Source of the DNA: an uncultured Pelagibacteraceae bacterium
Lineage (GTDB): Bacteria > Pseudomonadota > Alphaproteobacteria > Pelagibacterales > Pelagibacteraceae
Assembly (NCBI GenBank): GCA_902559935.1
Contig: CACEJN010000006.1
Span: forward strand, 1-43,964
DNA: 43,964 nt
Reading direction: 5' to 3'
The notes beneath the pieces are model-generated. The model ran no database searches, had not been told where the DNA came from, and was given only the letters and a program-made list of their open reading frames with translations. Both the position numbers and the translations under genes were made by a program. Positions 12,070 to 26,547 of the stretch are shown here, piece after piece; positions within the stretch are counted from its first letter, which is position 1, and each line of letters starts with the position of its first letter.

Positions 12070-12211
12070 CACAACTTATAATTGACAAATTTTAATTTTT
12101 TCACATTTTTTAAATAAATGATATGAGACAATCACATAGCTGATATGTGTCGGCCCTGTCTTTGCTAAATAGAATCATTTTAATATAGTTTCTCTATTAA
12201 AAGGAGGAGAA
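12070..12211 (+). promoter_or_regulatory. Structured leader before the glycoside-binding protein gene
   Basis: 142 bp without a gene. TTGACA at 12082-12087 matches a -35 box; no good -10 is found at the right distance. A nested fold is visible: AGACA (12126-12130) with TGTCT (12157-12161) outside, CACATA (12133-12138) with TATGTG (12144-12149) inside, and a 5-nt loop GCTGA. The GC-rich TCGGCCC strip lies between the arms. A second weak stem (TTTTAA.../...TTAAAA) abuts the strong AAGGAGGAG ribosome site. It may be a regulatory RNA leader; no known riboswitch class is recognised. Confidence 0.4.
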
Positions 12212-13543
12212 ATGAAAAATATAATAAAAATGTTTTGCGTAATTTCGTTTTTTATTTCGAATATTGTTTACGCAGACATAAAGTTTTGGACTACAGAAGT
12301 TCAGCCTGCCCGAATGGCTAAGCAAGAGGAAATGGCAAAAGCTTTTGAAGCTAAAACAGGTATTAAAGTAGATGTGATACCGGTTGAAGAAAAAGAACTA
12401 GGTACAAGAGCTACAGCTGCTGCTGCAGCAGGAGACTTACCAGACGTTATTTATCACACTTTACAATATGTATTACCATGGGCTGAAGCAGGAATATTAG
12501 ATGTAGATGCTAACAATGCAGTTGTGAAAGAATTAGGTAAAGATACATTTGCACCAGGTGCACTTAACATGGCAAAAAAAGGTTCAAAGATTGCAGCTGT
12601 TCCCGTTGATGGATGGACACAAATGGTTGTTTACAGAAAAGACCTTTTTGAAAATGCAGATTTAGCACCTCCAACAAGTTATGCAAACATTGTAGCTGCT
12701 GTTGAGAAGCTATCAAAACAAAATGGAATGTTTGGTTTTGTTGCTGCAACTAAAACTGATGAAAATTTCATGAGTCAGGTTTTAGAACACGTTCTTTTAG
12801 CAAATGGGGTTAATATTGTTAAAAAGGGTGGTATCAAGAAACAAGGTAAAAAACTAAAAGAAGCATTAGAGTTTTATAAAGTAATTGCTAAAGCAAGTCC
12901 TCCAGGTGAATTGTACTGGAAACAATCTAGAGCACTTTACTTTGCAGGAAAAACTCCAATGATTATTTGGTCACCATTTATTATGGATGAGCTTGCAGGT
13001 TTAAGAGACTCGGCTCCACCAACAATTAACAGTGACCCTACATCACCTGAACTAGCGTCTAAAACTGGTTTCATAACTAATTTTAGTGGACCTAGTAACA
13101 AAAAAGGTGCTGCATGGGCAGATATTAGATATTTTGGTATAACAGCTGACGCTGACACAGATGAAGCTAAACAATTTATCATGTACTCAATGGATGAAGG
13201 TTACACAAGTACATTATCGATAGCTCCAGAAGGTAAATTTCCTGTAAGAAGAGGAAATTCAAGTGACCCTGAAGCTTTCACGAAAGCTTGGAGTAAACTA
13301 CCTGTTGGAGTTGATAGAAAAGCACCTTTGTCAGATCTATACGACCCAGATGTAATTAATAATATTGTAGCTGGTTTGGATACTGCAAATAGATGGGGTG
13401 TTAAAGAAGGTGAACTATCAAGAGCATCAAAAGTCATAAATTCTCAATTTATTAATAGAATTACTAGACTTTATATTGATGATCAAATTGATGTCGATGA
13501 AGCTGTTGATATGATTAATAAATCATTAGCTAAATTCAATTAA
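12212..13543 (+). CDS. Extracellular sugar/glycoside-binding protein (CUT1 type)
   Basis: 443 residues with a signal peptide (MKNIIKMFCVISFFISNIVYA, cut after ~21). The mature start IKFWTTEVQPARMAKQEEMAKAFEAKTGIKVDVIPV and the later AAAGDLPDVIYHT are classic for family 1 (maltose/UgpB-like) binding proteins. PVDGWTQMVVYRKDLF is the conserved hinge-side block. It is periplasmic and presents a carbohydrate to the two permeases that follow. Codon choice looks less A+T-driven than in the neighbouring permeases, as expected for an abundant protein. With a GH63-type hydrolase at the operon end, the ligand is probably a glycoside such as glucosylglycerate, mannosylglycerate or a disaccharide. Confidence 0.9.
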   Translation: MKNIIKMFCVISFFISNIVYADIKFWTTEVQPARMAKQEEMAKAFEAKTGIKVDVIPVEEKELGTRATAAAAAGDLPDVIYHTLQYVLPWAEAGILDVDANNAVVKELGKDTFAPGALNMAKKGSKIAAVPVDGWTQMVVYRKDLFENADLAPPTSYANIVAAVEKLSKQNGMFGFVAATKTDENFMSQVLEHVLLANGVNIVKKGGIKKQGKKLKEALEFYKVIAKASPPGELYWKQSRALYFAGKTPMIIWSPFIMDELAGLRDSAPPTINSDPTSPELASKTGFITNFSGPSNKKGAAWADIRYFGITADADTDEAKQFIMYSMDEGYTSTLSIAPEGKFPVRRGNSSDPEAFTKAWSKLPVGVDRKAPLSDLYDPDVINNIVAGLDTANRWGVKEGELSRASKVINSQFINRITRLYIDDQIDVDEAVDMINKSLAKFN

Positions 13544-13555
13544 TTTAAATTTTTT

Positions 13556-13589
13556 AAAAAAGCGGATAATATAAATTATCCGCTTTTTT
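13556..13589 (+). terminator. Perfect 15-bp hairpin ending in U-tract, abutting the permease start
   Basis: Arms 13556-13570 and 13575-13589 are perfectly complementary, with loop ATAA and a GC-containing middle (AGCGGATAAT). The 3' side is a run of seven T. It lies 12 nt after the binding-protein stop, and the permease ATG begins two bases after the stem. It reads as an intrinsic attenuator that lets only part of the transcripts reach the permease genes. Confidence 0.9.
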
Positions 13590-13590
13590 T

Positions 13591-14850
13591 ATGAATGATA
13601 CTTTAGCAAATACAGAAAAAAAAACTGCATATATACTAACACTACCTGCAGTCCTTTTAGTTTTTTCAATAATTTTATTTCCAATTTTTGCAAATATTTG
13701 GATTAGTTTTAAAGAAGTTGAATTAAAAGATATTCGAATTCCAGAACCAAGAGCAAAAAAAATTGTAAAATCTATTTCTGATGAGCCCTCTAAAATAAAA
13801 ATATTATATAAGTTAAGAAACAGTTCATTAATTCAAGAGATAAGATACGTTTCATTTCAAGATAATTTTCCAAAAAATTTTGAAATTGAAAATTTAGATC
13901 CAAGATGTTCTTACGAAAAGTATAAGTTAAAATGTGAATTTGGAAATTGGCCAGCTAAATATAGGGAAAATTTCCAAGTAATATTTGCAACAAATGATGG
14001 ATCAAAAATAGACAAAAAAAATCTTAAATCTATTAAACCAAAATTGGATGGGAAATCTGATAATATATTGCTTAATACTAACTTTACTCTTAAAAACTTT
14101 AAAAAAGTTTTATTTGAGAATGAATTTATAGATTTACTACTAACAACGTTTTATTACACATTCTTTGGAACCGTTGGCTCAATAGTATTTGGGATTTTAA
14201 CAGCTCAAATGGTAAATCAAAAATTTTATGGAAGAACATTTATGAGAAGTGTTCTGCTTTTCCCTTATGTTGCTCCAGTTGTTGCATTAGCTTATACTTG
14301 GGAACTGTTACTAGATCCGAATAGCGGAACGTTAAATAGTTTACTATTAAATTATCAAATTATTGAAACACCAATAAATCTTCTTGGACAAAAATATATT
14401 GAAATTAGTATATTGGGTTTTGATTTTAAATTAAGGTTAGCGCTTACAACAGTTATTATGTTTGAAATTTGGAGGTATTTTCCTTTAGCCTTTTTATTTA
14501 TTCTTGCGAGACTTCAAGCAATTCCAAAAGAATTATATGAGGCCGCTGATGTTGATGGAGCAAGTCCTTTTCAAAAATTTTTTAATATTACACTTCCTCA
14601 AATTACCGCAGTAATTTCGATTTTATTCATGATTAGGTTTATTTGGAATTTTAATAAATTTGAGGACGTCTTTTTATTAACTGGAGGTGCATCAGGAACG
14701 AGAACTTTACCAATAAATGTTTATCAACAAGGTTTTGCAATATCAGACATTGGAATGGGTTCAGCTGTTTCAATAGTAATCGTTGTGTTGCTTTTAATGT
14801 TTATGTTTTTTTATTTTAAACTTTTAGGAAAGAAAGTAGATGAGAACTAA
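13591..14850 (+). CDS. CUT1 ABC permease, MalF-like, with periplasmic insertion
   Basis: 419 residues. TM1 at about 15-36, then a soluble insertion of about 120 residues (about 45-165) containing Cys106 and Cys114, then the permease core from about 178 with EAA loop 314-336 (ELYEAADVDGASPFQKF). MalF of enteric bacteria also has a large periplasmic loop between early helices, so the architecture is comparable, though this insert is of no family I recognise. The ATG lies directly against a terminator hairpin and there is no Shine-Dalgarno, so translation is probably weak. Overlaps the next permease by 11 nt. Confidence 0.9.
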   Translation: MNDTLANTEKKTAYILTLPAVLLVFSIILFPIFANIWISFKEVELKDIRIPEPRAKKIVKSISDEPSKIKILYKLRNSSLIQEIRYVSFQDNFPKNFEIENLDPRCSYEKYKLKCEFGNWPAKYRENFQVIFATNDGSKIDKKNLKSIKPKLDGKSDNILLNTNFTLKNFKKVLFENEFIDLLLTTFYYTFFGTVGSIVFGILTAQMVNQKFYGRTFMRSVLLFPYVAPVVALAYTWELLLDPNSGTLNSLLLNYQIIETPINLLGQKYIEISILGFDFKLRLALTTVIMFEIWRYFPLAFLFILARLQAIPKELYEAADVDGASPFQKFFNITLPQITAVISILFMIRFIWNFNKFEDVFLLTGGASGTRTLPINVYQQGFAISDIGMGSAVSIVIVVLLLMFMFFYFKLLGKKVDEN

Positions 14851-16033
14851 AAATACAATATTATTTTCATTGATATCTACTTTTTTCTTAATTTTTTTAA
14901 TTTCGATTTGGAAGATATTAGCAACATTGCAAGGTTTAAGTATTAATAGTTTTAATATAGAAATAATTTTTATATTTGGTTTTTTTATATCATTAACTCA
15001 CTTAGGAATAGGTGATAGAATTAAATCAATTTATAAATCAATCATTTTTTCATCTATATTTGTTTTTTGTGATGGTTACTTAATACAAAAATTGCCAATT
15101 TGGTATAATGTAGGTATATTTTTAATATTATATTTTTTCACCAATAAAATTAGCAAATATACTTTTATAGGTTTAAAAGAAGAGCACTCTACACAAGTAA
15201 TTTTATTCGACTTCTTAACATTATTTGGAATTTTATTTTTCTCTTTTGTAATACTTTTTCCATTTTACATGATGTTAGTAACAAGTTTCAAAACACAAAT
15301 AGCTTTGTTAGTGAATCCTTTAGATTTTAGTATCAATTTCGGACAAGATATAAAAGATTTATTTAAATCTTATTTTGTAATTTTTAAATCTTATAAATTT
15401 GGAAAATATATAGTGACAAGTACTATTGTTTCTGTTGGTACCGTTATTATCACTCTTCTTTTTGCAATACCTGCTGCTTATGCAGTTGCAAGATTAAATT
15501 TCTTTGGAAAAACATTTTTGTCTACTTCTATACTGATAATATACATGTTCCCTGCAATTGTTCTTGTTATTCCATTGTATACGATATTTAGTCAATTGGG
15601 CTTACGTAACTCTATAGAAGGTTTATTAATTGTATATACAGCAACAACTCTTCCAGTAGCTATTTATATGTTACAAGGATATTTTAAAAGCATACCGAAA
15701 GAATTAGAGGAAGCTGCAATTTTAGACAAATTAAGTTGGTTTGGAATTATAACAAAAATTATAATTCCCTTGAGCATTCCTGCAATTTCATCTGTAGCTT
15801 TATATGTTTTTATGATTGCTTGGAATGAGTTTTTATTTTCTTTGATGTTTTTAGACAATCCTAATTCATTTACATTATCAAGGGCTATCCAATATTTAAG
15901 TGGAGATGCAGAAACGCCAAGACAATATTTAATGGCAGGCTCAGTGGTTGTTACATTACCAGTACTATTTATATTTGTTTATTTTGAAAAATATTTAGTA
16001 AGTGGTCTGACTGCAGGAAGTGTCAAAGGTTAA
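14840..16033 (+). CDS. CUT1 ABC permease, MalG-like, with extra N-terminal helices
   Basis: 397 residues, about 100 longer than a usual MalG. Residues about 8-112 form roughly four additional hydrophobic segments (LISTFFLIFLISIW, IIFIFGFFISL, IIFSSIFVFC, VGIFLILYFF). The canonical part starts near 125 (FLTLFGILFFSFVILFPFYMMLVTSFK) and includes the EAA loop ELEEAAILDKLSWFGIITKI. The second transmembrane subunit of the glycoside importer. ATG overlaps the upstream gene; its own stop overlaps the hydrolase start as TAATG. Confidence 0.9.
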   Translation: MRTKNTILFSLISTFFLIFLISIWKILATLQGLSINSFNIEIIFIFGFFISLTHLGIGDRIKSIYKSIIFSSIFVFCDGYLIQKLPIWYNVGIFLILYFFTNKISKYTFIGLKEEHSTQVILFDFLTLFGILFFSFVILFPFYMMLVTSFKTQIALLVNPLDFSINFGQDIKDLFKSYFVIFKSYKFGKYIVTSTIVSVGTVIITLLFAIPAAYAVARLNFFGKTFLSTSILIIYMFPAIVLVIPLYTIFSQLGLRNSIEGLLIVYTATTLPVAIYMLQGYFKSIPKELEEAAILDKLSWFGIITKIIIPLSIPAISSVALYVFMIAWNEFLFSLMFLDNPNSFTLSRAIQYLSGDAETPRQYLMAGSVVVTLPVLFIFVYFEKYLVSGLTAGSVKG

Positions 16034-17289
16034 TGAGAAATTTGATTAATAAAGCTCAAAAGACCTTACTGGGTAACAGAAGAAAAGGGTATACCTTACC
16101 TACAAATAATAAGCTTTACCCAGCTCAATGGAATTGGGACTCTGCGTTTATAGCACTAGGTTATTCTTATTTTAATTTAAACCATGCACTTAAAGAAATT
16201 ACAACATTGCTAGATGGTCAGTGGAAAGATGGCATGGTTCCTCACATATTATTTCATGATACGAATACAAACTATTATCCAAATTATACTGCTTGGAATT
16301 GTGGTAATAAAATTCATTCATCTGGTATTACTCAGCCTCCTATTTTATCAACTATTTTGAAATTGATTTTAGATAAAAACAAAATATCTAATAAACAAAC
16401 TAAAGAAGTTAAAAAAATTGTAAAAAAAATAATTAGATTTCATGAATGGTTTATTAAATTTAGAGATCCGAAGAAAACTGGGTTAGTTTCAATTCTTCAT
16501 CCTTGGGAAAGTGGATATGATAATTCTCCTATTTGGGATGAACCAATGGAAAAAGTAACTATTGAAAAAAATTTAAAATATAAAAGAGCAGATAATAAAC
16601 TTGTTAACCCAGATCATCGACCTCTTAATATAGACTATGATAGATATGTATCTATTAAGAATAATTTAAGAAAAAAAAAATATAATCCTAAAAAAATTTT
16701 TAAATCTTCTTTATTTAATGTTGTGGATGTTGGATTTAATTCTTTATTTTTAAAGGCTAACAAAGATCTTATTCAAATATTAAATAAGTTTAATCTAGAG
16801 AGTTCTAAAATAAGTAATTATGTCAAAATTACTGAAAAAAATATTTTAAAGTTATATGACAAAAAGAAAGAAGCTTTTTTTTCAAAGGATATAAGAAATA
16901 AGAAAAAAATTTATGTACCTTCGATTACAAATTATTTTATCCTTTTTGCAGATTTAAATAACGATTTAATTAATAAGAAATTAATTAAAAGTCTTAAAAA
17001 TCATAATAAAAATGATAAATATTTTTTTTCTTCAATTAAACCAAATCATAAAAGTTTTGAGGAAAAAAGGTATTGGAGGGGTCCGATTTGGGTAAATTGT
17101 AATTGGTTTATTTACAAAGGATTAATGAATAAAGACAATTCTTTTTCAAGAAAAATTAAAAGAAAAACGATACAAATGATTGAGGCAAATGGTTTTCATG
17201 AATATTATACCCGAAAAAGTGCTAAACCTATGGGGGCCAAGAATTTTTCTTGGTCAGCAGCTCTTTATTTAGACTTAGTGTTAAATTAA
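16033..17289 (+). CDS. GH63-type glycoside hydrolase, cytoplasmic
   Basis: 418 residues and no signal peptide. The (alpha/alpha)6 hydrolase motifs of the glucosylglycerate/mannosylglycerate hydrolase branch of GH63 are visible: WNWDSAF (33-39), HPWESGYDNSPIWD (156-169) with the likely acid Asp163, YWRGPIWVNCNW (347-358), and FHEYY with the likely base Glu390 followed by FSWSAAL. It would cleave the imported glycoside inside the cell. Translation is coupled to the permease by TAATG. The gene is extremely A-rich (many lysine codons), suggesting low expression. Alternatives are trehalase-like or other alpha-glycosidase activity. Confidence 0.85.
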   Translation: MRNLINKAQKTLLGNRRKGYTLPTNNKLYPAQWNWDSAFIALGYSYFNLNHALKEITTLLDGQWKDGMVPHILFHDTNTNYYPNYTAWNCGNKIHSSGITQPPILSTILKLILDKNKISNKQTKEVKKIVKKIIRFHEWFIKFRDPKKTGLVSILHPWESGYDNSPIWDEPMEKVTIEKNLKYKRADNKLVNPDHRPLNIDYDRYVSIKNNLRKKKYNPKKIFKSSLFNVVDVGFNSLFLKANKDLIQILNKFNLESSKISNYVKITEKNILKLYDKKKEAFFSKDIRNKKKIYVPSITNYFILFADLNNDLINKKLIKSLKNHNKNDKYFFSSIKPNHKSFEEKRYWRGPIWVNCNWFIYKGLMNKDNSFSRKIKRKTIQMIEANGFHEYYTRKSAKPMGAKNFSWSAALYLDLVLN

Positions 17290-17291
17290 AA

Positions 17292-18578
17292 TTAACCTGT
17301 ATATCCGTATTTTTTCAATCTTACGTCACCAGTTCTTGCATGTGCTTCCATACCCTCGTATCTTGAAAGTCTTGCAGCTGCAGCTCCAACTAATTCTGTA
17401 GATTCTTTTGTCATTCTTTGGAAGCTTAGTGTTTTGATGAATTTTCCTACAAATAAACCACCTGTGTATCTTCCAGCTCCTTTTGTAGGTAAAATATGAT
17501 TTGTTCCTGAACATTTATCTCCATAAGCAACAGTTGTTTCTTCACCAACAAATAAAGAACCATAATTTTTTAATCTGTTGTGGAACCAATCTAAATTCTT
17601 TGTTTGTACCTCTAAGTGTTCAGGTGCATACTCATCACTAATAGTAGCCATCTCTTCATCACTATCACAAAGAACTACTTCTCCGTAATCTCTCCAAGCT
17701 GCCTCAGCATTTGTTCTTGGTAATTCTGGTAATTCAGCAATTAATTCTGGAACTCTTTTCATTACTTTTTCTGCTAGTTCTTTACTTGTAGTGTACAACC
17801 AAGCAGGTGAATTATAGCCATGCTCAGCTTGACCAACTAAATCTACAGCTACAATTTCTGGATCAGCAGTTTCATCAGCGATTATTGCAATTTCAGTTGG
17901 ACCTGCAAATAAATCTATTCCAACTTTACCAAATAAAATTCTTTTTGCTTCAGCAACAAATTGATTACCTGGACCTACTAAAATATCAGCAGGCGCATTT
18001 CCAAATAAACCATTTGTCATAGCTGCAATTGCTTGTACTCCACCTAAGTTCATTATTACATCTGCACCACAAAGATCAGCTGTATAAACAATAGTAGGAT
18101 GAACACCAACACCTGGTTTTGGTGAGCTACATACTAGAATATTTTTAACACCAGCAACTTTTGCAGTTGTTACACTCATCACAGCAGAAGCTATATGTGC
18201 GTATCTACCAGCAGGAACATAACATCCAGCAGTATTTACAGGAATTAATCTTTGACCAGCATACAAACCTTCTGAAAGTTCAACCTCAAAATCTTGTCCA
18301 TAATTTTTTAATTGTGCTTCTGCAAATTTTCTAACTCTTTCATGAGAAAACTGAACATCATCTTTAGTTTTTTGATCTAAATTTTTTTTAATCTCTTCAA
18401 TTTTTTCTTTGGAAACGATTACATCACCCTCAAATTTATCAAATTTTTTTGAAAGTTCTTTACAGCCTTCTTCTTTAGTTTTTTCAATATCTTTTAAAAT
18501 ATTTTCAACTATTTCTCTTGTTTTTGTATCATCTGTTGAAGATGTTTTTGGTGATTTTTTTAAATATTGTATTGCCAT
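17292..18578 (-). CDS. HisD-family dehydrogenase, probably sulfopropanediol 3-dehydrogenase (HpsN-like)
   Basis: 428 residues. Metal/catalytic residues of histidinol dehydrogenase are all in place: Q250, H253, E320-H321, D354, H361, H413. However, the segment GDKCSGTNHILPTKGAGRYTGG...KFIKTLSFQRM (353-388) follows the HpsN-type paralogues, which oxidise 2,3-dihydroxypropane-1-sulfonate to sulfolactate, rather than true HisD (SGPSHVLPT). There are no histidine genes nearby. The upstream co-directional gene is a phosphotransacetylase, and taurine genes follow within 4 kb. I infer sulfonate metabolism. A different diol or amino-alcohol substrate remains possible. Confidence 0.8.
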   Translation of the reverse strand: MAIQYLKKSPKTSSTDDTKTREIVENILKDIEKTKEEGCKELSKKFDKFEGDVIVSKEKIEEIKKNLDQKTKDDVQFSHERVRKFAEAQLKNYGQDFEVELSEGLYAGQRLIPVNTAGCYVPAGRYAHIASAVMSVTTAKVAGVKNILVCSSPKPGVGVHPTIVYTADLCGADVIMNLGGVQAIAAMTNGLFGNAPADILVGPGNQFVAEAKRILFGKVGIDLFAGPTEIAIIADETADPEIVAVDLVGQAEHGYNSPAWLYTTSKELAEKVMKRVPELIAELPELPRTNAEAAWRDYGEVVLCDSDEEMATISDEYAPEHLEVQTKNLDWFHNRLKNYGSLFVGEETTVAYGDKCSGTNHILPTKGAGRYTGGLFVGKFIKTLSFQRMTKESTELVGAAAARLSRYEGMEAHARTGDVRLKKYGYTG

Positions 18579-18653
18579 TATCGTTTCCTTTTTTTTGAGC
18601 CTCTTTAATAAAGTATAAAAGCAATGAATTCAATAAGTTTGCTTAATTTAGAA

Positions 18654-19565
18654 CTAATCTAATGCAACTACTGCCGCTGCAATAGAGGCTAATCGTGCTT
18701 GAGCTTCATCAGATCTACTTGTGATCACAACTGGTACTTTTCCACCGACCACAACTCCTGCGGCACATGCTCCACTAAAATATATCAGCATTTTTACTAA
18801 AGCATTCCCAGTTTCTACACTCGGCACTAACAATACATCCGCCTCACCAGCAACTAAATTTTTAATTCCTTTTATTGCTGCTGATTTTTTTGAAATACTG
18901 TTATCAAATGCTAAAGGACCAAATACATCAGCATTTAAATTTTCTTCTTTTGCTAATTTTGTAATTTCTGCAGCTTCAATAGAACTTGGCACACTTTCCA
19001 AAACTTCTTCAGTAGCAGATAATACGGATACTTTTGGTCTTTCTATTCCTATTCTATTTGAAAAATTAACGACATTCTTAAGAATATGCATTTTTGTTTT
19101 AACATTTGGTAAAACATTTAATGCTCCATCAGTAATAATTAATGGCTTATCATCTTTACCGATAGTCATATGCCAAATATGACTTAATCTTGTTTTTCCC
19201 AACAAATTATATTCACGTTTAAGCACTTCTTTCATAAGTACATCAGTATGAATATGGCCTTTCACTATTATTTTTACCTTGCCTTCACTTGCTAATTTAG
19301 CAGCAATTTTAGCCGTATCATTCTCTACAGGTTCATGAATAAGCTCATATTTAGAGATATCCCACTTAATATCTTCAGCACATTTTTGAATTTCTACTTC
19401 ATGACCAATAAATATAGGCTCAATTAAATTTTCATTAACCGCGTCTTGAACGGATAACATAGGCAAAGGTTTGCCAGCATTTACAACTGCAACTTTAACT
19501 CCTTTTTTTTTATGAGCTAAATCTAATAAGTTGTTTGGACAGACAATTTCTTTGTTTGAAAGCAT
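18654..19565 (-). CDS. Phosphate acetyl/butyryl transferase
   Basis: 303 residues of the Pta/Ptb fold: VKVAVVNAGKPLPMLSVQDAV at the start, IIVKGHIHTDVLMKEVL, and near the end ADVLLVPSVETGNALVKMLIYFSGACAAGVVVGGKVPVVITSRSD, the conserved substrate/CoA block. It is the size of Ptb or short Pta. It converts acetyl phosphate and CoA to acetyl-CoA (or the butyryl equivalent). In sulfonate degraders such an enzyme processes acetyl phosphate from sulfoacetaldehyde acetyltransferase. First gene of the unit with the HisD-family gene (75-nt gap) and divergent from the symporter. Confidence 0.88.
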   Translation of the reverse strand: MLSNKEIVCPNNLLDLAHKKKGVKVAVVNAGKPLPMLSVQDAVNENLIEPIFIGHEVEIQKCAEDIKWDISKYELIHEPVENDTAKIAAKLASEGKVKIIVKGHIHTDVLMKEVLKREYNLLGKTRLSHIWHMTIGKDDKPLIITDGALNVLPNVKTKMHILKNVVNFSNRIGIERPKVSVLSATEEVLESVPSSIEAAEITKLAKEENLNADVFGPLAFDNSISKKSAAIKGIKNLVAGEADVLLVPSVETGNALVKMLIYFSGACAAGVVVGGKVPVVITSRSDEAQARLASIAAAVVALD

Positions 19566-19591
19566 TTTTTTCTACAAATAAGTGAAAAAAC

Positions 19592-19605
19592 TGAACATGT
19601 ATATA
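19592..19605 (-). promoter_or_regulatory. Candidate operator upstream of the phosphotransacetylase gene
   Basis: TGAACATGTATATA (read on +) lies 26 nt upstream of the phosphotransacetylase ATG and matches 12 of 14 positions of the longer element at 19627-19641 and 21497-21511. It may be a binding site for the regulator encoded at 20514-21476. Confidence 0.4.
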
Positions 19606-19626
19606 AAAAAAATTCTTTATATAAAT

Positions 19627-19641
19627 TGAACAAGTTTATAT
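19627..19641 (+). promoter_or_regulatory. Candidate operator upstream of the BASS symporter gene
   Basis: TGAACAAGTTTATAT, 24 nt before the symporter start. The identical 15-mer occurs at 21497-21511 upstream of the regulator gene. A shared exact 15-mer in two control regions 1.9 kb apart suggests a common transcription factor. No perfect dyad is present, so the bound protein may read it as a direct or asymmetric site. Confidence 0.55.
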
Positions 19642-19665
19642 AATTGATCTTGAGCGGGGGAGACT

Positions 19666-20517
19666 TTGGAAATTGTAACTAAAATAGCGCCAATCATATT
19701 GGCCTTGATAATGTTAGGCTTAGGCCTAGGATTAAAGCTAGAAGATTTTGGCAGAGTATTAAAATCACCAAAAGATTTTATTGTTGGTTTTATTTCTCAA
19801 TTAATAATTCTTCCAATTGTAGCATATCTATTAATTTTAATTTTTAAAACACCGCCAGAAATAGCAATAGGGGTTATGATCATAGCTGCAGCTCCAGGTG
19901 GAGTTACGTCTAATATTATGACTAAATTTGCTGATGGAGATGTTGCATTATCAATATCTTTAACAGCTGTTATTAGTTTGTTAAGTATAATTACCGTTCC
20001 TTTAATAATCTTTAATTCCGCAGACATGTTAGGGATAACTGAAGTTTCTCAAAATATTTCAATGACAGGGATAGCATTAAAAATGTTTTTAGTGGTAACG
20101 GTACCTGTAATTTTAGGAATGATTATCAGAAAATTTGCTGAAAATTTTGTAGCTTCTAAAGTTGGAATATTTAACAAACTCAACATCGTGTTATTTGCAA
20201 TTTTCTTTTTTGCAGCGTTTTACGAAGAAAAAGAAAATTTAGTTAGCTTCATAATGCAAGCTGGTTTAATTACTTTGATATTAAATGTATCGATGATGGT
20301 TATTGCATATTACATTGCAAAAGCTTTTGCCTCAGGAGTTAAACAAATGAGATGTATTGCCTTAGAATGTGGATTACAAAATGGTACTTTAGCTATATTC
20401 GTTTCTACACAAATATTTGGCACTGATATATTATATGCAATACCAACAGCTGCTTATGCATTAATCATGTATATAACTGGATTTATATTTATTTTTATTT
20501 TAAGAAAGTCCAATTAA
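19666..20517 (+). CDS. BASS-family (bile acid:sodium symporter-like) transporter
   Basis: 283 residues, eight to ten membrane helices. Features include LGLGLKLEDFGRVLKSPKDFIVGFISQLIILPIVAYLL, the AAAPGGVTSNIMTKFADGDVALSISLTA block with the G-G-x-x-S-N sodium-site motif, and a late CGLQNGTLAIFVS crossover. The start is TTG at 19666, supported by the GGGGGAG site ending 4 nt before it; the next in-frame ATG is 16 codons in. Family members import organic anions (bile acids, pyruvate, pantothenate-like acids). Divergent from phosphotransacetylase/HpsN-like genes, so a sulfonate or carboxylate is the likely cargo. Confidence 0.88.
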   Translation: MEIVTKIAPIILALIMLGLGLGLKLEDFGRVLKSPKDFIVGFISQLIILPIVAYLLILIFKTPPEIAIGVMIIAAAPGGVTSNIMTKFADGDVALSISLTAVISLLSIITVPLIIFNSADMLGITEVSQNISMTGIALKMFLVVTVPVILGMIIRKFAENFVASKVGIFNKLNIVLFAIFFFAAFYEEKENLVSFIMQAGLITLILNVSMMVIAYYIAKAFASGVKQMRCIALECGLQNGTLAIFVSTQIFGTDILYAIPTAAYALIMYITGFIFIFILRKSN

Positions 20518-21476
20518 GTATTGATTATTCTTATTTGATTAAAAACTTTATAAATAAAATGGCTTAAGCTAAGCATATTTTTATTAACCATACCCTTTGT
20601 TGTTACAAAAGCACTATCTTTAGCATTGTATGTAATTAATTTTTTATCATTTATATGAAGAAATTTTTTATCAACTAAATATTTTATTTTTCTAACAACT
20701 GTAGGTCTAGGAATACCAGTTATCTCAGAAATTGACATGGCATTAACCCCTCTTTTATCTGATCCCCGAATCTCTTTTCTATATGAATCTAAATGTTGTT
20801 TTTTTGGAGTAAATTTTGGATTTTTAATTGTATTTATTAGCACAACCATGCCGATTGCAAAAACTTCTAAATCCTTTAATTCTTCTCTCCATCTTTTAAT
20901 AAAAATAAACCAAAATTTATTAAACTGATATAAGCAATAAGAAAAATTTTCTTTTATTGCTAATATTATTTCTTTAACAGAGTAAACTTCGGTTACTAAT
21001 TTTTCTTTTTTTAAAATTTTATTAAATTCATGCAACATATTTGCAACCTCAGTAAGAGTATCGACCGCTTTTGCTGAGTAAAGGGTATCTCGAACAACAA
21101 ATATTTTCTTACCGGTTCTTTTAATTACTCTTTGTTCTTCTAATTCTAAAACTTTTCTTCTAATACTTTCTTTTGGAACTCCTAGATCTTTTGAAATGTC
21201 TGAAATATTAATTTTATTAATTTCGATTGATTTATCCCTATAAAATGTGTCGTAGTTAATTTTTACACCATTTTGTCTGAAATATATAAGGTCTTGATGT
21301 ATCAAATATATAATGAGAACAAACTTATCTATGTCTTTGTAATGATCATAGGCTCTTACAAACCAGTTGCTTGTTAAAGTAAAATAAGCGGGCGCCAGTG
21401 CGGCAAAATTATCTTGAATTACTTTATTGATTGTCTTCTCATCAATATGTTCAGATATACTTGGTATTGTGTTCAT
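20514..21476 (-). CDS. Putative transcriptional regulator with two winged-helix segments
   Basis: 320 residues, no signal or membrane part. Two separate HTH-like stretches are seen: residues about 88-128 (INISDISKDLGVPKESIRRKVLELEEQRVIKRTG) and about 245-282 (MSISEITGIPRPTVVRKIKYLVDKKFLHIND). Both read as recognition helix plus wing. The middle (about 130-235) is helical, perhaps a dimer or ligand part. I do not recognise the family. It faces the symporter (4-nt 3' overlap), and its own upstream region carries the 15-mer also found before the symporter, hinting at autoregulation and control of this cluster. Confidence 0.75.
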   Translation of the reverse strand: MNTIPSISEHIDEKTINKVIQDNFAALAPAYFTLTSNWFVRAYDHYKDIDKFVLIIYLIHQDLIYFRQNGVKINYDTFYRDKSIEINKINISDISKDLGVPKESIRRKVLELEEQRVIKRTGKKIFVVRDTLYSAKAVDTLTEVANMLHEFNKILKKEKLVTEVYSVKEIILAIKENFSYCLYQFNKFWFIFIKRWREELKDLEVFAIGMVVLINTIKNPKFTPKKQHLDSYRKEIRGSDKRGVNAMSISEITGIPRPTVVRKIKYLVDKKFLHINDKKLITYNAKDSAFVTTKGMVNKNMLSLSHFIYKVFNQIRIINT

Positions 21477-21496: not shown

Positions 21497-21511
21497 TGAA
21501 CAAGTTTATAT
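21497..21511 (-). promoter_or_regulatory. Candidate operator upstream of the regulator gene
   Basis: TGAACAAGTTTATAT (on +), 20 nt upstream of the regulator ATG and 80 nt upstream of the micro-protein gene at 21592. Identical to 19627-19641. A TATAAT at 21559-21564 may be the -10 box of the micro-protein gene. Confidence 0.55.
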
Positions 21512-21591: not shown

Positions 21592-21789
21592 ATGAGTACA
21601 GAAAGCTTACATAGAACATCCGAGATTGTAGAGACCCCCTCTCAATATGTTGAAGCTCCGAAAAGGGTTAACGTGGATGTTCTAAAGCAAAGACTTCTAG
21701 AAGAAAAGAAGAAGGAAAAAGTTAAACGAACAATAATTTTATCATCTGTTATCGTTTCTTTGGGTGCTCTAACGATGTTAACTTATTAA
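21592..21789 (+). CDS. One-TM micro-protein, paralogue of 31701-31910
   Basis: 65 residues. A polar N-terminal half (about 1-40) is followed by a basic helix (QRLLEEKKKEKVKR) and a single C-terminal membrane helix (IILSSVIVSLGALTML). The second copy at 31701-31910 shares the layout N-V-x-x-L-x-x-R...K-x-x-K-K/R-R-x-I-x-x-S...SL-x-x-L. It overlaps the 3' end of the convergent Ldh2-type gene by 12 nt. No family known to me. It may be a membrane-tethered modulator of an adjacent transporter. Confidence 0.65.
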   Translation: MSTESLHRTSEIVETPSQYVEAPKRVNVDVLKQRLLEEKKKEKVKRTIILSSVIVSLGALTMLTY

Positions 21790-22782
21790 ATTTTCTAAAT
21801 CTTTCTTTATTATATCCGGTATAGAAATTTCTTTTTTTGAGTTATTTTTATACCGGACATATTTATTTTGTCCTGGATACATTATTTCCTTAACACCTTT
21901 TATCTTAGGAAGTTTTTTTATTGTTTTAATATTTTCTTTAATTCGTTGGTTGAAATTTTTTTGAAATAAATTTGCTTTAAAAGTAATAAATAAATGTCCA
22001 ATATTTTGTGGACCTGAAAAATCATCAAATGGATCTTTAACTCTTCCTGCGTGATTTCCTCCAGTTAAAACTCCACTTAATATATCTACCATCCAAGCAA
22101 GTCCCGATCCTCTAAAGCCTGCAATTGGTAATTGAACTCCGGCTAATGCTTTTTTTGCATCGATGGTTGGTTTGCCAAATTTATCTAAAGCAACTCCCGT
22201 AGGAATTGATTGATTATTTCTTGCGGCAACTCTAATTTTGCCTCTGTTAATTACTGAAATTGATGTGTCTAAAATAAAAGGGATTTTAGAACCAGTAGGG
22301 GATCCAAAACAAATTGGATTTGTTCCAAATAAAGATTTTAAAGCACCGTGGGGAGCAACTGCAGGTGGAGCATTTGTATAGATCATTGTAATTAAATTTT
22401 TCTTTACCGCTTGTTCTGCGTAGTAACCAGATAAACCATAGTGACCACTGTTTTTAACCGCTACCATTCCTATTCCAGTTTTTTGTGCATGCTTGATTGC
22501 AGTTTTAATTCCTAGATCTGCAGCAACAAAACCAATACTATTTTTTGCATCTATGTGTGAAATAGAAGAAGAAATTTTTTTAATTTTAATTTTTGGTTTT
22601 GGATTAATTACTTTTTTAGAAATTCGATCACAGTACATTTTAAGTCTTGATAAACCATGTCCATATGCACCAACTAGTTCAGCGTTGATTAATGCATTAG
22701 CAGAAATCAAAGCATGATCTTTACTTAGGCCAAATTTTTGGAATATTTTAATGACTTGTTTTTTTAAAACTGGGGTCTTCAT
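21778..22782 (-). CDS. Ldh2/Mdh2-family NAD(P)-dependent 2-hydroxyacid dehydrogenase
   Basis: 334 residues of the malate/L-lactate/sulfolactate dehydrogenase family. Signposts are GAYGHGLSR (H42), KNSGHYGLSGYYAE (H114), GTNPICFGSP, ILDTS (D172) and GSGLAWMVDILSGVLTGG. It follows tauC by 16 nt and is co-directional, so it is probably part of the taurine operon. That context favours (R)-sulfolactate dehydrogenase (ComC/SlcC-like) or another sulfonate-linked 2-hydroxyacid enzyme over central malate metabolism. The family also contains ureidoglycolate dehydrogenase and piperideine-2-carboxylate reductase. Confidence 0.85.
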   Translation of the reverse strand: MKTPVLKKQVIKIFQKFGLSKDHALISANALINAELVGAYGHGLSRLKMYCDRISKKVINPKPKIKIKKISSSISHIDAKNSIGFVAADLGIKTAIKHAQKTGIGMVAVKNSGHYGLSGYYAEQAVKKNLITMIYTNAPPAVAPHGALKSLFGTNPICFGSPTGSKIPFILDTSISVINRGKIRVAARNNQSIPTGVALDKFGKPTIDAKKALAGVQLPIAGFRGSGLAWMVDILSGVLTGGNHAGRVKDPFDDFSGPQNIGHLFITFKANLFQKNFNQRIKENIKTIKKLPKIKGVKEIMYPGQNKYVRYKNNSKKEISIPDIIKKDLENLIS

Positions 22783-22798
22783 TTCATCCCCTTAACAT

Positions 22799-24724
22799 TT
22801 ATCCTTTTCCACGCCAAGGAATAGTTTTATCAATTATTTTTCTTAATGTAATATCAAATAAAAGACCTAGTAGACCCATAATAAATATCGTTATCCAAAT
22901 TACCTCATATTGGAAGTACTTTTTAGCAACGTTTTCAACAAAACCAATACCGGTTGTACCTGCTAAAAACTCTGCAGCAACAAGCGTTCCCCAACACATA
23001 CCAACAGCAACTCTAATTCCTGTAAGAATTTCAGGAAGTGAATTTGGGAAAATTACATGTCTTAAAATTTGTTTTTTAGTAGCTCCTAGCGAGTGGGCTG
23101 CATGGATTTTTGATAGTTGTGTTCCTGAAGCACCAGCTCTTGCAGAAATAATCATTATCGACAAAGAGACCATAAATAACAAGAATACTTTTCCTGAGTT
23201 GTCAATTCCAAGTACCGAAATAATCAAAGGTGCCCATGCAAGAGGAGGAACAGGTCTGTAAAGTTCAATTAATGGATCAAAAAAACCTTTTGCAAATCTG
23301 TTTAGGCCCATAAATAATCCTAAAGGTACACCAATTATAATACCGAAGATTAATCCTAAAAACACTCTCATAAAAGAGTCCCAGATATGTCCGTATGGAA
23401 CAGGTACTTTAAATAATTTAAAGTCACCTGTAACAAATTTTAATACATTGCTCTTAAAGTTTTCTTTTACAATTCCATCTTTTGAATGTACCGGATATTC
23501 ACCGGGCAATATATCTGCTATCCAATCTGGTAAAATAAATCCTATCATTTTACTCACATCAACCATTTCAATCCATAAAAGAGGAATATTTTTGTAGCCA
23601 ACGCTTGGTTTTGACATCAGTATAAATTTATTAAAAGTATCAGATGGCTTTGGTAACCATCTTCCTGATCCTTGTTCAGAGCATGTTGGTCCACTTGCTA
23701 CAATTGTTCCTGCTGGAAATAGAAGAATATCAATTAATCTTAATCCACCTTGTTCTTTATTTTGCAATTCGTCAAATTCAATTATTGCAGCCTGCATTTC
23801 ATTTAATGCATTAGGGGGATAGATACTTGCAAACTCTATTCTTCTTGCAATTTTAACAATGTTCTTTGCATAATCAGATGCAATTTCTTCATTATCATTT
23901 AAACCTTTTCTATATGTTTTAATATCATCTTTAAGTTGTTTAATTGAGCTTTTGAACTGTGGGTTATGATTTTTTAATTTGAAAAATTTGTCATCAATTT
24001 TTTTTAGTTCTGCTGCAGCTGCATTAAATTTTAAGCCTTTATTAGTTTGAGGTGCAGTCGGTATTTCAATGGTATTTTCTATAGAACCACTTCCAGAATC
24101 TATTGTTGTTATTCCCCAACCACCTTGTTCATTAATAAGTTTCTGTCTTTCAGTTTTCTGAGCATCTGTTTCAAAAGGATAATCTTTTTTTTGGAAATTT
24201 GAACTTAGAAGTTTTATTTCTTCAGTCATTTCCTTAAGTTTAATTTTGGTATCCATTTCCATTAATTCTTCATTTGTTAAAAAAGGAATTAATTTAGAAG
24301 TTCTATCAATGTAACTTACAAGGATTGTTTTTTGTTGATCATTTAGATCTGGAGATGCTTTTATTTCATTTGCAATTTTTACAAGATTTTTATTTTCAAT
24401 TTTAATAATGGATGTGCTTTTAAATTCTCTTTCTTCAATAGGGAACTGATATTTTAAACCTAATAATGATTCATTAATTTTAGCGACTTGACATAATTCA
24501 TTTGCTGATTTTGGATAAAAACCTTTTGCAATGTCCCAGGAATAATAAAGCCATAGCATTAGAATTACACTGCTACCAACGATTACCCAGTGCGTTCCAC
24601 CTTTAGCTCTTTCAGGATTACCAAAGACTGCATCCACTTTTTCAGTTCTAATTAATCTTCTTCCATAAAGAATGCATCCAATTACAGCTACAAATATTAA
24701 GATCGTTACAAATTGGGTTAACAT
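22799..24724 (-). CDS. tauC: Taurine-type ABC permease with ~440-residue N-terminal extension
   Basis: 641 residues, against about 275 for ordinary TauC. The permease core is about 445-641, with WDSFMRVFLGLIFGIIIGVPLG and EAA loop 541-566 (HAAHSLGATKKQILRH). In front are two membrane helices (about 4-20 and 45-62), then some 300 residues of lysine/glutamate-rich, coiled-coil-prone sequence (about 100-325), and a further region with two cysteines (C79, C348) up to 440. By topology this long part should be periplasmic. Its stop and start are coupled with tauB by TAATG. The extension has no family I recognise. Confidence 0.88.
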   Translation of the reverse strand: MLTQFVTILIFVAVIGCILYGRRLIRTEKVDAVFGNPERAKGGTHWVIVGSSVILMLWLYYSWDIAKGFYPKSANELCQVAKINESLLGLKYQFPIEEREFKSTSIIKIENKNLVKIANEIKASPDLNDQQKTILVSYIDRTSKLIPFLTNEELMEMDTKIKLKEMTEEIKLLSSNFQKKDYPFETDAQKTERQKLINEQGGWGITTIDSGSGSIENTIEIPTAPQTNKGLKFNAAAAELKKIDDKFFKLKNHNPQFKSSIKQLKDDIKTYRKGLNDNEEIASDYAKNIVKIARRIEFASIYPPNALNEMQAAIIEFDELQNKEQGGLRLIDILLFPAGTIVASGPTCSEQGSGRWLPKPSDTFNKFILMSKPSVGYKNIPLLWIEMVDVSKMIGFILPDWIADILPGEYPVHSKDGIVKENFKSNVLKFVTGDFKLFKVPVPYGHIWDSFMRVFLGLIFGIIIGVPLGLFMGLNRFAKGFFDPLIELYRPVPPLAWAPLIISVLGIDNSGKVFLLFMVSLSIMIISARAGASGTQLSKIHAAHSLGATKKQILRHVIFPNSLPEILTGIRVAVGMCWGTLVAAEFLAGTTGIGFVENVAKKYFQYEVIWITIFIMGLLGLLFDITLRKIIDKTIPWRGKG

Positions 24725-25521
24725 TAATTATCTTTCCCCATTATTTCTTCTTCCATATTCCAAATCATGGATAAAATTTCTTCTCTTGTTGATGAAAATT
24801 CTTTATTTTTTTTAATTTCCCTTAAATCTTGTGTAAGACCCATTTCAGCAAATGGAAGATTGTACTCTTTATGTATACGCCCTGGTCTTGGTGCCATCAC
24901 ATACAATCTTTCACCAAGTAACAATGCTTCTTCAACGGAGTGTGTAATTAAGATAATTGTTTTTCCTGTTTCTTTCCAAATTTTTAAAACTAAAGACTGC
25001 ATCTTTTCTCTTGTTAATGCATCTAAAGCTCCTAATGGTTCATCCATTAAAATTAAATCTGGATCATTGATTAAACATCTTGCAAGCGCAACTCTTTGCT
25101 GCATACCTCCAGATAGTTGATAAGTAGGTGTGTTACCAAAACCTTTAAGACCAACGATATCTAACCATTCGTCAACTTTCTTAGCTGTAACTTCAGGATC
25201 TTCTTTCTTCATCCTAAGTCCAAAATTTACATTCTCAGCTACCGTTAACCATTCAAACAAAGCACCTTGTTGAAATACCATTCCTCTTTCAACACCAGGT
25301 CCATCAATTTCATTATTATTAAGTGTTATTTTTCCTGAGGTAGGTCTTAAAAATCCAGCAGTAATATTTAGTAAAGTTGTTTTTCCACAACCAGAAGGAC
25401 CAAGAACTGTAAGCAATTCTCCTTTTTTTAAAGTAAAGCTGACGTCCTTTAAAGCATGAACTGTTTCTCCTTTGGGAGTTTTAAAAATCATGTTCAGATT
25501 TTGAGAAATCAGATCACTCAT
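24724..25521 (-). CDS. tauB: Taurine-type ABC transporter ATPase
   Basis: 265 residues. Walker A GPSGCGKTT (41-49), Q-loop QQGALFEW, signature LSGGMQQR (136-143), Walker B LILMDEP (156-162), LDALTREKMQ D-loop and THS switch (H194). The LGALDALTRE pattern is diagnostic for the nitrate/sulfonate/taurine (SsuB/TauB) ATPases. It lies between tauA, from which it is separated by a terminator hairpin, and tauC (TAATG). AAGG before ATG 25521 could serve as a weak ribosome site. Confidence 0.93.
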   Translation of the reverse strand: MSDLISQNLNMIFKTPKGETVHALKDVSFTLKKGELLTVLGPSGCGKTTLLNITAGFLRPTSGKITLNNNEIDGPGVERGMVFQQGALFEWLTVAENVNFGLRMKKEDPEVTAKKVDEWLDIVGLKGFGNTPTYQLSGGMQQRVALARCLINDPDLILMDEPLGALDALTREKMQSLVLKIWKETGKTIILITHSVEEALLLGERLYVMAPRPGRIHKEYNLPFAEMGLTQDLREIKKNKEFSSTREEILSMIWNMEEEIMGKDN

Positions 25522-25605: not shown

Positions 25606-26547
25606 TTATAAAGGTAAGAAACTTGTATCTACAGCTCCTCCTGGAGTTCCCATACCTTTTAGGAAACCATCAAGATTACCGCTTTCCATAGATGCTTTTG
25701 TTTCTTCTGGAGTTAAGAATTTGAAACCACTTAAAGTGTCTTTCATATCTGCAACTGTCATTTCAGAAGCTTTCGCCATAGAATTCATATCAGCTTTACC
25801 AGCTTTGTATCTAGCATTTGCTTCATGAGTAACTTCAATGAAAGTTCTTAACATACCAGGGTTTTCTTTCATGAATTTATCTGTAACAGAAGTGATATCT
25901 ATACCTAAGATACCAGCTGCTCTAGCTTCATCTACAGTTAAAAGTCTTGATCCAACTGCAGTTGCTGCTTTGATAGAATTACCACCAAATAAACATGCCA
26001 TTACAACATCACCGCTTACCAATGCAGCAGCACCTTCTTCTGGGTCCATTTGAATAATATCCATTTTACCTCTGTCAGCACCAACAACTTTCATACTTTC
26101 ATCAAAAACGTATTCAGCCATTGTTCCTAAAGGAACAGCAACTTTTTTACCCTCTAACTCAGTAGCGTTTGCTTTTGTAATTCCAGAAGCATTAGATGTA
26201 ACACATGTAGTTCCACCCATTCCGTATTCCATAGCAATATCAACCAATTTGATAGGTGCATTAGATTTTACAGCATTGATAAAAGGTACTAATCCTTGTG
26301 AGTAAGAAATATCGATATCTCCTGCTAACATTGCATCAGTCATTGCTCCACCATTAGTGAAATTTGTCCATTTTACTGGAACACCAAGAGCTTTAGCAAA
26401 ATTCTTTTTCTGCATGTCTTCTAAATTTGGGCTTGGCCATTCTAGAAAGTATGCAACTCTAACTTCATTTGCAGCTGAATTAGCAACTGAAATTGATAGG
26501 TTAAGTGCAAAAATAGATCCTAGAATAAAACTTAGTATTTTTTTCAT
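25606..26547 (-). CDS. tauA: Taurine-type ABC substrate-binding protein
   Basis: 313 residues with a signal peptide (KKILSFILGSIFALNLSISVANS, cut near 23-25). The mature part VRVAYFLEWPSPNLEDMQKKNFAKALG...FTNGGAMTDAMLAGDIDISYSQG is the TauA/SsuA pattern (NMT1-like fold), with a late VMACLFGG block. Periplasmic, hands substrate to TauBC. GGGGAA before the ATG is a good ribosome site. First gene of tauA-tauB-tauC-dehydrogenase, divergent from the aminotransferase operon. Taurine is the favoured ligand because of the aminotransferase/Ald neighbours; other sulfonates are possible. Confidence 0.9.
   Translation of the reverse strand: MKKILSFILGSIFALNLSISVANSAANEVRVAYFLEWPSPNLEDMQKKNFAKALGVPVKWTNFTNGGAMTDAMLAGDIDISYSQGLVPFINAVKSNAPIKLVDIAMEYGMGGTTCVTSNASGITKANATELEGKKVAVPLGTMAEYVFDESMKVVGADRGKMDIIQMDPEEGAAALVSGDVVMACLFGGNSIKAATAVGSRLLTVDEARAAGILGIDITSVTDKFMKENPGMLRTFIEVTHEANARYKAGKADMNSMAKASEMTVADMKDTLSGFKFLTPEETKASMESGNLDGFLKGMGTPGGAVDTSFLPL

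Follow-up and report, generated by a model that had tools for sequence, protein, structure and literature searches.

A probable sulfonate-catabolism island around hpsN in SAR11 (Pelagibacter)

Introduction

SAR11 are very abundant ocean bacteria, and sulfonates are a large currency passed from algae to bacteria. A contig of 43,964 nucleotides from an uncultured Pelagibacteraceae bacterium (CACEJN010000006.1 of assembly GCA_902559935.1; its whole length is hereafter the window) carries, at 17292–21476, genes for a HisD-like dehydrogenase, a phosphotransacetylase, a BASS-family secondary transporter and a putative regulator. Does the dehydrogenase serve histidine synthesis or sulfonate breakdown and, if the latter, which sulfonate does it oxidize and with which partners? 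A sequence-only reading had taken the four genes for a compact module for the uptake and oxidation of 2,3-dihydroxypropanesulfonate (DHPS). By its sequence, the HisD-like protein belongs to the HpsN family of sulfonate dehydrogenases and is not a histidine enzyme. In the account that we favor, and consider reasonably probable, the locus belongs to a SAR11 (Pelagibacter) sulfonate-catabolism island in which HpsN most likely acts on R-DHPS and taurine is handled in parallel; this recurring cluster probably lets SAR11 feed on small algal sulfur compounds.

In the pelagic surface ocean, SAR11 is reported to exceed Roseobacteraceae by far in hpsN transcript (PMC11131964; here and below, this paper, PMC11382572, PMC12636525 and PMC8703288 are cited from parts of their text). 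If SAR11 hpsN sits in a combined taurine and C3-sulfonate island and its product may use another compound, transcript counts taken as DHPS use would mislead. Such an island also supplies a few proteins (HpsN, TauA, BASS and the regulator) with directly testable ligands.

Identity of the HisD-like protein

17292–18578, minus strand: hpsN, HpsN-family NAD/Zn sulfonate-alcohol dehydrogenase of 428 amino acids (aa), assigned from structure scores, the GRYAH motif, six of six residues and a tree

PF00815 matches the protein with 441 bits, and both Pfam and NCBIfam label it a histidinol dehydrogenase. It is also the sole HisD-family gene of the window assembly, which is 58% complete in 52 contigs and has no separate HisD type. 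These two observations speak for a biosynthetic histidinol dehydrogenase lying next to unrelated genes, a reading that we consider very improbable and rejected on bit scores, the tree and the separate HisD-type genes of the genus. Its scores against solved structures are 540 bits for HpsN of Cupriavidus pinatubonensis (CpHpsN; 8v35), 517 bits for another (R)-DHPS dehydrogenase (8wwe) and 240 bits for the best HisD. A tree of 62 rows groups the SAR11 proteins in a single clade (support 100/98), which joins the proteins with a GRY(A/S)H motif (97/92) and is split from HisD at 100/100. Twenty-three genomes were searched, 22 of them at completeness of at least 97 and the other the window genome: 21 have an HpsN type, and 21 have a separate, distant HisD type. 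More widely, an HpsN-type gene (at least 72% identity) is present in 44 of the 61 genomes of our genus set, which includes the window genome, and in 0 of the 40 genomes of the sister-family set.

The window protein keeps all six metal and catalytic residues of Escherichia coli HisD, Q259, H262, E326, H327, D360 and H419 (for Q259, H262, D360 and H419 we give what we take to be the E. coli numbering), which confirms that part of the sequence-only reading. It also keeps the sulfonate-contact residues His126 and Lys353 along with the zinc ligands and the Glu/His bases, and it has GRYAH, an instance of the GRY(A/S)H motif, where HisD has GSAPL. The numbering of E326 and H327 follows PMC11382572, which describes GRYAH as HpsN-specific in its section 2.6. 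The earlier proposal of HpsN rather than HisD, with a phylogeny as its check, is thus borne out by scores, residues and gene content, and the tree sets the window protein apart from HisD. One of its arguments does not hold: the segment SGTNHILPT, offered as a mark of HpsN, is present, but we rejected it as diagnostic because the plain HisD 6an0 has SGTNHTLPT at the same place.

Phosphotransacetylase and the desulfonation genes

18654–19565, minus strand: pta, stand-alone phosphotransacetylase of 303 aa (PF01515, 119 bits), 75 bp upstream of hpsN on the same strand

The pta gene lies at most 300 bp from hpsN in all 44 genus genomes that have hpsN. Of 79 named loci with more than 1.1 kb upstream, 78 have it beside hpsN and only L115 does not; in such counts for SAR11, "named loci" are the surroundings of the 80 best among 555 named relatives found for the HisD-like protein, all SAR11 by title (Pelagibacteraceae, Pelagibacterales or Pelagibacter) and, as the closest relatives, a biased sample. 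Two more genus genomes carry the same pta with no hpsN match, and 12 of 14 sister-family genomes have a Pta homologue of 45–52% identity. The larger Pta-domain protein of the genus, in the one genome scanned for it, is most like NADP-dependent malic enzyme, under the cut-off.

Acetate kinase was found in 0 of the 61 genus genomes, and comE over its cut-off likewise in 0 of 61 (comD was not searched on its own), which argues that Pta most likely serves Xsc. Without acetate kinase, Xsc is left as the obvious supplier of acetyl phosphate to Pta in the genus. The placing of Pta after Xsc by the sequence-only reading gains support from the same kinase result and from the other near-complete genomes searched, 13 of 13 of which have xsc.

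Overall, a search of 101 relatives gave xsc above its cut-off in 71; among 14 chosen genomes it is found in 13, the window assembly being the one without. In all 13, xsc is divergent from suyA-suyB, and the SuyB encoded there shares 64–66% identity with SuyB from the hps cluster of Cupriavidus. Contig C26 of the window genome starts with a 361-aa piece of suyB (65% identity to Cupriavidus SuyB); NCBIfam gave no SuyB match to this piece, and suyA was not seen in the window assembly. Downstream on C26 lie a gene for a YeiH-like exporter (under cut-off) and then aprA and aprB, both over their cut-offs. Given the conserved gene order, suyA and xsc would lie beyond the end of this contig. In Pelagibacteraceae, suyAB and xsc are core or near-core genes, with aprAB as the probable sulfite outlet (PMC12636525). 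The sulfonate setting is supported, and the result that would have refuted the sequence-only reading, a genome with no other sulfonate desulfonation gene, was not obtained: the suyB piece lies in the window genome itself. The expectation of xsc, suyAB and comDE elsewhere in the genome stands in part, for the suyB piece and for xsc-suyAB in relatives; xsc was not found here, nor was comE.

As candidates for comDE, the five best TIGR03846 matches were rejected because they proved to be phosphonopyruvate decarboxylases; four score above the cut-off for that enzyme and the fifth falls short of it (285 of 312.5 bits). In five SAR11 genomes (L174–L178), the phosphonopyruvate decarboxylase gene stands beside nucleotidyltransferase-like genes, by eye a phosphonate-making context.

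Organization of the island

19566–19665, no strand: region between the divergent pta and BASS genes, with operator-like sites at 19592–19606 and 19627–19641
19666–20517, plus strand: BASS-family (SBF) secondary transporter, 283 aa, TTG start; PF01758 over its cut-off, TIGR00841 under
20514–21476, minus strand: reg, putative regulator of 320 aa with two winged-helix-like halves and helix-turn-helix (HTH) matches, overlapping BASS by 4 bp
21497–21511, plus strand: third operator-like site, upstream of reg, an exact 15-base copy of the 19627 site
21778–22782, minus strand: Ldh_2-family dehydrogenase, ComC-like by its nearest relatives; best NCBIfam match L-sulfolactate dehydrogenase
22799–24724, minus strand: tauC-like permease; TauC best match, under cut-off
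24724–25521, minus strand: tauB-like ATPase; TauB best match, 269 of 357 bits, under cut-off
25606–26547, minus strand: tauA-like binding protein, far from canonical TauA (SsuA 98 bits, TauA 85 bits)
26730–28076, plus strand: omega-aminotransferase, probably taurine:pyruvate transaminase (AptA model, 571 of 500 bits)
28086–29204, plus strand: alanine dehydrogenase (TIGR00518, 487 of 392 bits)
29207–31651, plus strand: FAD/GcvT demethylase-like protein, probable island member, adjoining AptA-Ald in relatives

The four open reading frames first pointed out are all present as described, and Pfam agrees with their families. Their description as a compact module is too narrow, since neighbors outside 17292–21476 recur alongside them. 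In 60 named loci with more than 8 kb upstream, BASS is found in 57, the ComC-like gene in 53, the regulator in 49 and TauC in 20. Where the sequence reaches 2.5 kb beyond the ComC-like gene, TauC follows it in 19 of 35 named loci. Elsewhere in the genus, 11 of 20 stretches have TauC, and in L042, L045 and L046 the order hpsN-pta-ldh2-tauC-tauB-tauA occurs without BASS or the regulator. Ten loci from near-complete genomes have the ComC-like gene in nine cases and TauC-TauB in eight, the remaining two ending before the TauC point; a TauABC-type importer is thus adjacent in eight of the eight that reach far enough. From these counts, pta-hpsN forms the steady core of the island, joined often but in no fixed place by BASS, the regulator, the ComC-like gene and TauABC.

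In the sister family, a homologue of the transaminase lies near xsc in three of three loci, and in two of these a FAD/GcvT homologue stands between transaminase and xsc, which suggests that the FAD/GcvT protein may demethylate N-methylated taurines. For the ComC-like protein, the nearest solved structure is an L-sulfolactate dehydrogenase (2x06, 188 bits), with a malate dehydrogenase at 183 bits. The tauC-like permease has about 440 extra N-terminal residues, and residues 444–640 alone match the TauC model.

Regulator and operator-like word

The regulator contains HTH matches of which only TrmB exceeds its cut-off (28.8 versus 25.6 bits), the others being weaker. Its structure model has a pLDDT of 86 and, judged from secondary structure, two winged-helix-like halves. 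A Foldseek fold search of this protein returned nothing at E <0.1, just short winged-HTH pieces.

The word TGAACAAGTTTATAT stands in the pta/BASS intergenic region at 19627 and again upstream of reg at 21497; a third copy, at 19592, has one mismatch. Allowing at most one mismatch, there are three matches in the whole window against 0.07 expected, for a word that was picked after reading the sequence. The 15-base word common to the two promoter regions is longer than that shared by any of 1000 shuffled pairs. Within the window, 54 15-base words recur, which means that a 15-base repeat is not rare in itself and only its placing is. Thirty chosen relatives, three of them without gene labels, were compared at up to two mismatches. 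Both BASS-side sites are found in 14 and the pair is missing in 16, including loci with an inserted ABC transporter or a regulator of at most 71% identity; the reg-side site appears in just four, which makes it the weaker part of the operator case. The idea that the locus has its own regulator thereby receives moderate support from a repeated operator-like word in two promoter regions, and we suggest that the regulator probably acts by binding this word in the pta/BASS and reg promoters.

Substrate and importer

Which compound, then, does the island serve, and how does it enter the cell? In the proposed route, sulfonates would be imported by the TauABC-type transporter and perhaps by the BASS symporter. 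With the activity of its family, HpsN would take a C3 sulfonate, most likely R-DHPS, through two NAD+-dependent oxidations of its primary alcohol, yielding R-sulfolactate. SuyAB, encoded elsewhere, would cleave R-sulfolactate to pyruvate and sulfite, and the ComC-like enzyme would connect sulfolactate and sulfopyruvate. In parallel, as protein families and gene content suggest, the transaminase and alanine dehydrogenase would convert taurine to sulfoacetaldehyde, from which Xsc, also encoded elsewhere, would form acetyl phosphate and sulfite, and Pta would then yield acetyl-CoA. R-DHPS comes out of our analysis as the likeliest HpsN substrate, with amino-sulfonates such as cysteinolate as a serious rival. 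It is the default because this is the characterized activity of HpsN and because SuyAB takes R-sulfolactate.

A number of observations weigh against this account. CuHpsN, a SAR11 homologue (PU1002_02401) that may not be the ortholog of the window protein, has a Km of 106 mM for R-DHPS, and its efficiency on histidinol is just 2.2-fold below that on R-DHPS (PMC11131964). No hpsO or hpsP match was found in the window or in the ten near-complete-genome loci, and the 58%-complete window assembly has no xsc match. The Ldh_2-family protein reaches only 236 of 500 bits with its best model, the ComC model NF040650, which is under the cut-off, as are the tauC-, tauB- and tauA-like scores against their curated models. 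Another sequence takes the place of TauC in 16 of the 35 testable named loci, and the importer's relatives include two cuyA-hpsN loci. The SAR11 clade falls outside the clade of the remaining HpsN proteins with weak support (92/77), which leaves the substrate unfixed by the tree. One SAR11 subclade (about 73% identity; L053, L054, L061, L219 and L243) has GRYNN where the other listed HpsN proteins have GR(Y/F)(A/S)H, and thereby has no sulfonate-contacting histidine.

It is possible, if doubtful, that the main task of SAR11 HpsN is to make cysteate by oxidizing an amino-sulfonate alcohol, either cysteinolate (2-amino-3-hydroxypropanesulfonate) or a form released from N-methylated relatives of it. 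Uptake would be through the TauABC-type importer; a general aminotransferase would then form sulfopyruvate, which the ComC-like enzyme would reduce to R-sulfolactate for cleavage by SuyAB. HisD itself oxidizes a 2-amino alcohol, which fits such a substrate, and the gene set of SAR11 (a ComC-like gene and suyAB, no comE, no hpsOP in the island) fits sulfopyruvate reduction. Eight loci from other named relatives combine an HpsN-like gene with cuyA, an aminotransferase and cuyB in flanks without hpsO or hpsP, and CuyA and CuyB exceed their cut-offs where scanned (L182, L263). In Paracoccus seriniphilus and in Ruegeria sp. SCSIO 43209, cuyA-cuyB-hpsN adjoin the importer that most resembles the one of SAR11 (TauB 68–69%, TauA 38–42%). 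In P. seriniphilus there is also a FAD/GcvT gene, 30% identical to that of SAR11, with folD and purU upstream; the SAR11 island likewise has a FAD/GcvT gene. The poor activity of CuHpsN on DHPS (PMC11131964), the binding of L-cysteate by CpHpsN much as R-sulfolactate (PMC11382572, section 2.4) and the wide occurrence of cysteinolic acid in algae (PMC8703288) point the same way. On the other side, the window has no cuyA match; three of the six closest plasmid TauA relatives (38–42%) have no hpsN within 7 kb and one record is unannotated; TauA of the remaining cuyA operons is only 22–25% identical; and L-cysteate inhibits CpHpsN weakly, with an IC50 of 2.4 mM (PMC11382572). An assay of HpsN on cysteinolate was not found in the parts of the literature on cysteinolic acid and HpsN that we covered.

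The contexts of HpsN in other Alphaproteobacteria bear on the same question. Two contexts occur, unmixed in a sample of 19 class loci: HpsN with hpsO and/or hpsP in 14, and HpsN with an aminotransferase plus CuyA/CuyB or TauABC in four. The last locus, on a short contig, has neither, a 33% SDR match in L198 being left uncounted. Thirteen chosen named HpsN loci divide into five with hpsO/hpsP and eight with aminotransferase/Cuy genes. Between 19 hpsOP-linked and 12 aminotransferase/CuyA-linked HpsN proteins, the zinc, catalytic and sulfonate-contact positions are identical; other positions that separate the two contexts are mixed in SAR11, which counts against the cysteinolate reading, and the grouping is confounded with phylogeny; on its own, the residue comparison does not decide between the substrates. 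Neither cuyA nor cuyB has a match in the window, and cuyA was not sought in the remainder of the SAR11 genomes. PMC11382572 places CuyA as a branch of DHPS breakdown via HpsNOP and sulfopyruvate, an arrangement that sits poorly with those named cuyA operons whose flanks have no hpsOP. From their gene content, the CuyA-CuyB-HpsN loci are possibly a cysteinolate pathway. We regard as rather unlikely the broader proposal of an undescribed SAR11 pathway chiefly for cysteinolate and its N-methylated relatives, made up of the TauABC-type importer, the FAD/GcvT demethylase, HpsN, a reversed ComC, SuyAB and a new two-winged-helix regulator, with the importer-cuyA-cuyB-hpsN operons of other Alphaproteobacteria as its second form.

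As side observations on these operons, CuyA and CuyB with an HpsN-like gene annotated hisD were seen in L182, L221–L225, L230, L233 and L263, most of them with an ABC importer and an aminotransferase. The HpsN-like protein of Ruegeria sp. SCSIO 43209 has GRYSH.

Returning to the R-DHPS account, its importer can also be read in another way, as the sequence-only reading did: the four genes would stand alone as a DHPS unit supplied mainly through BASS, a secondary transporter in place of an ABC system. BASS is a clear SBF-domain protein (PF01758, 131 bits against a cut-off of 24.3) that diverges from pta-hpsN across a common operator-like region. It is a commoner neighbor than TauABC (57 of the 60 named loci, versus 20 with TauC), which favors that emphasis on the transporter. 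BASS homologues occur in 42 of the 61 genus genomes; hpsN accompanies them in 37, on the same contig in 31 and on a different one in six, and in all 31 the two lie at most 20.5 kb apart (19 within 5 kb). Against this stand seven of the 44 hpsN-bearing genus genomes without a BASS match, and L244 and L245, in which BASS sits at the opposite end of the island, past the FAD/GcvT gene. A different ABC ATPase lies directly upstream of pta in 20 of the 80 named loci. For the window itself, the claim of a secondary transporter alone fails because a TauABC-type importer adjoins, as it does in the eight near-complete and 19 named loci counted above. We think a mainly BASS-fed unit quite unlikely; BASS could be either a sulfonate importer or a product exporter.

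Among the ABC genes found upstream of pta, those of L092 (3705–8008), the one locus scanned for this, encode a system most like the putative 2-aminoethylphosphonate importer PhnS2/U2/T2, all parts being under cut-off.

Comparison with known systems

That SAR11 has HpsN, suyAB and xsc is already published. CuHpsN (PMC11131964) and the core suyAB, xsc and aprAB of Pelagibacteraceae (PMC12636525) concern the same bacteria and the same pathway genes; in the parts cited, neither account describes the neighborhood seen in the window or an operator, and the SAR11 hps genes are said not to lie in one operon (PMC11131964). The literature examined, mostly as listed entries, yielded no account of the island, of its regulator or operator, or of a role for BASS in sulfonate use.

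The closest characterized relative is the hpsRNOUP-suyAB system of C. pinatubonensis (8v35; PMC11382572). The window HpsN is 58% identical to its HpsN and shares GRYAH together with the zinc, catalytic and sulfonate-contact residues, and suyAB is also present in the SAR11 genus. The window differs in having no match to hpsO, hpsP or hpsU (the last searched in the window only) and in having instead pta, the ComC-like gene, TauABC, BASS and a different regulator; moreover, SAR11 suyAB is located elsewhere, beside xsc. The TRAP-hpsNOP operons of Paracoccaceae and Roseobacteraceae encode a homologous HpsN (59–62%) and, unlike the window, have a TRAP transporter and hpsO/hpsP adjacent. Operons with an ABC importer, cuyA, an aminotransferase, cuyB and hpsN resemble the window in combining an HpsN-like gene and a TauABC-type importer with no hpsOP. 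They differ from it in having cuyA and cuyB adjacent to hpsN, where the window has pta and the ComC-like gene.

On the other side of hpsN, at 11014–17289, the window encodes a carbohydrate-type ABC transporter and a glucosylglycerate-hydrolase-like protein; among 68 named loci with more than 6 kb downstream, 34 keep the gene for the latter.

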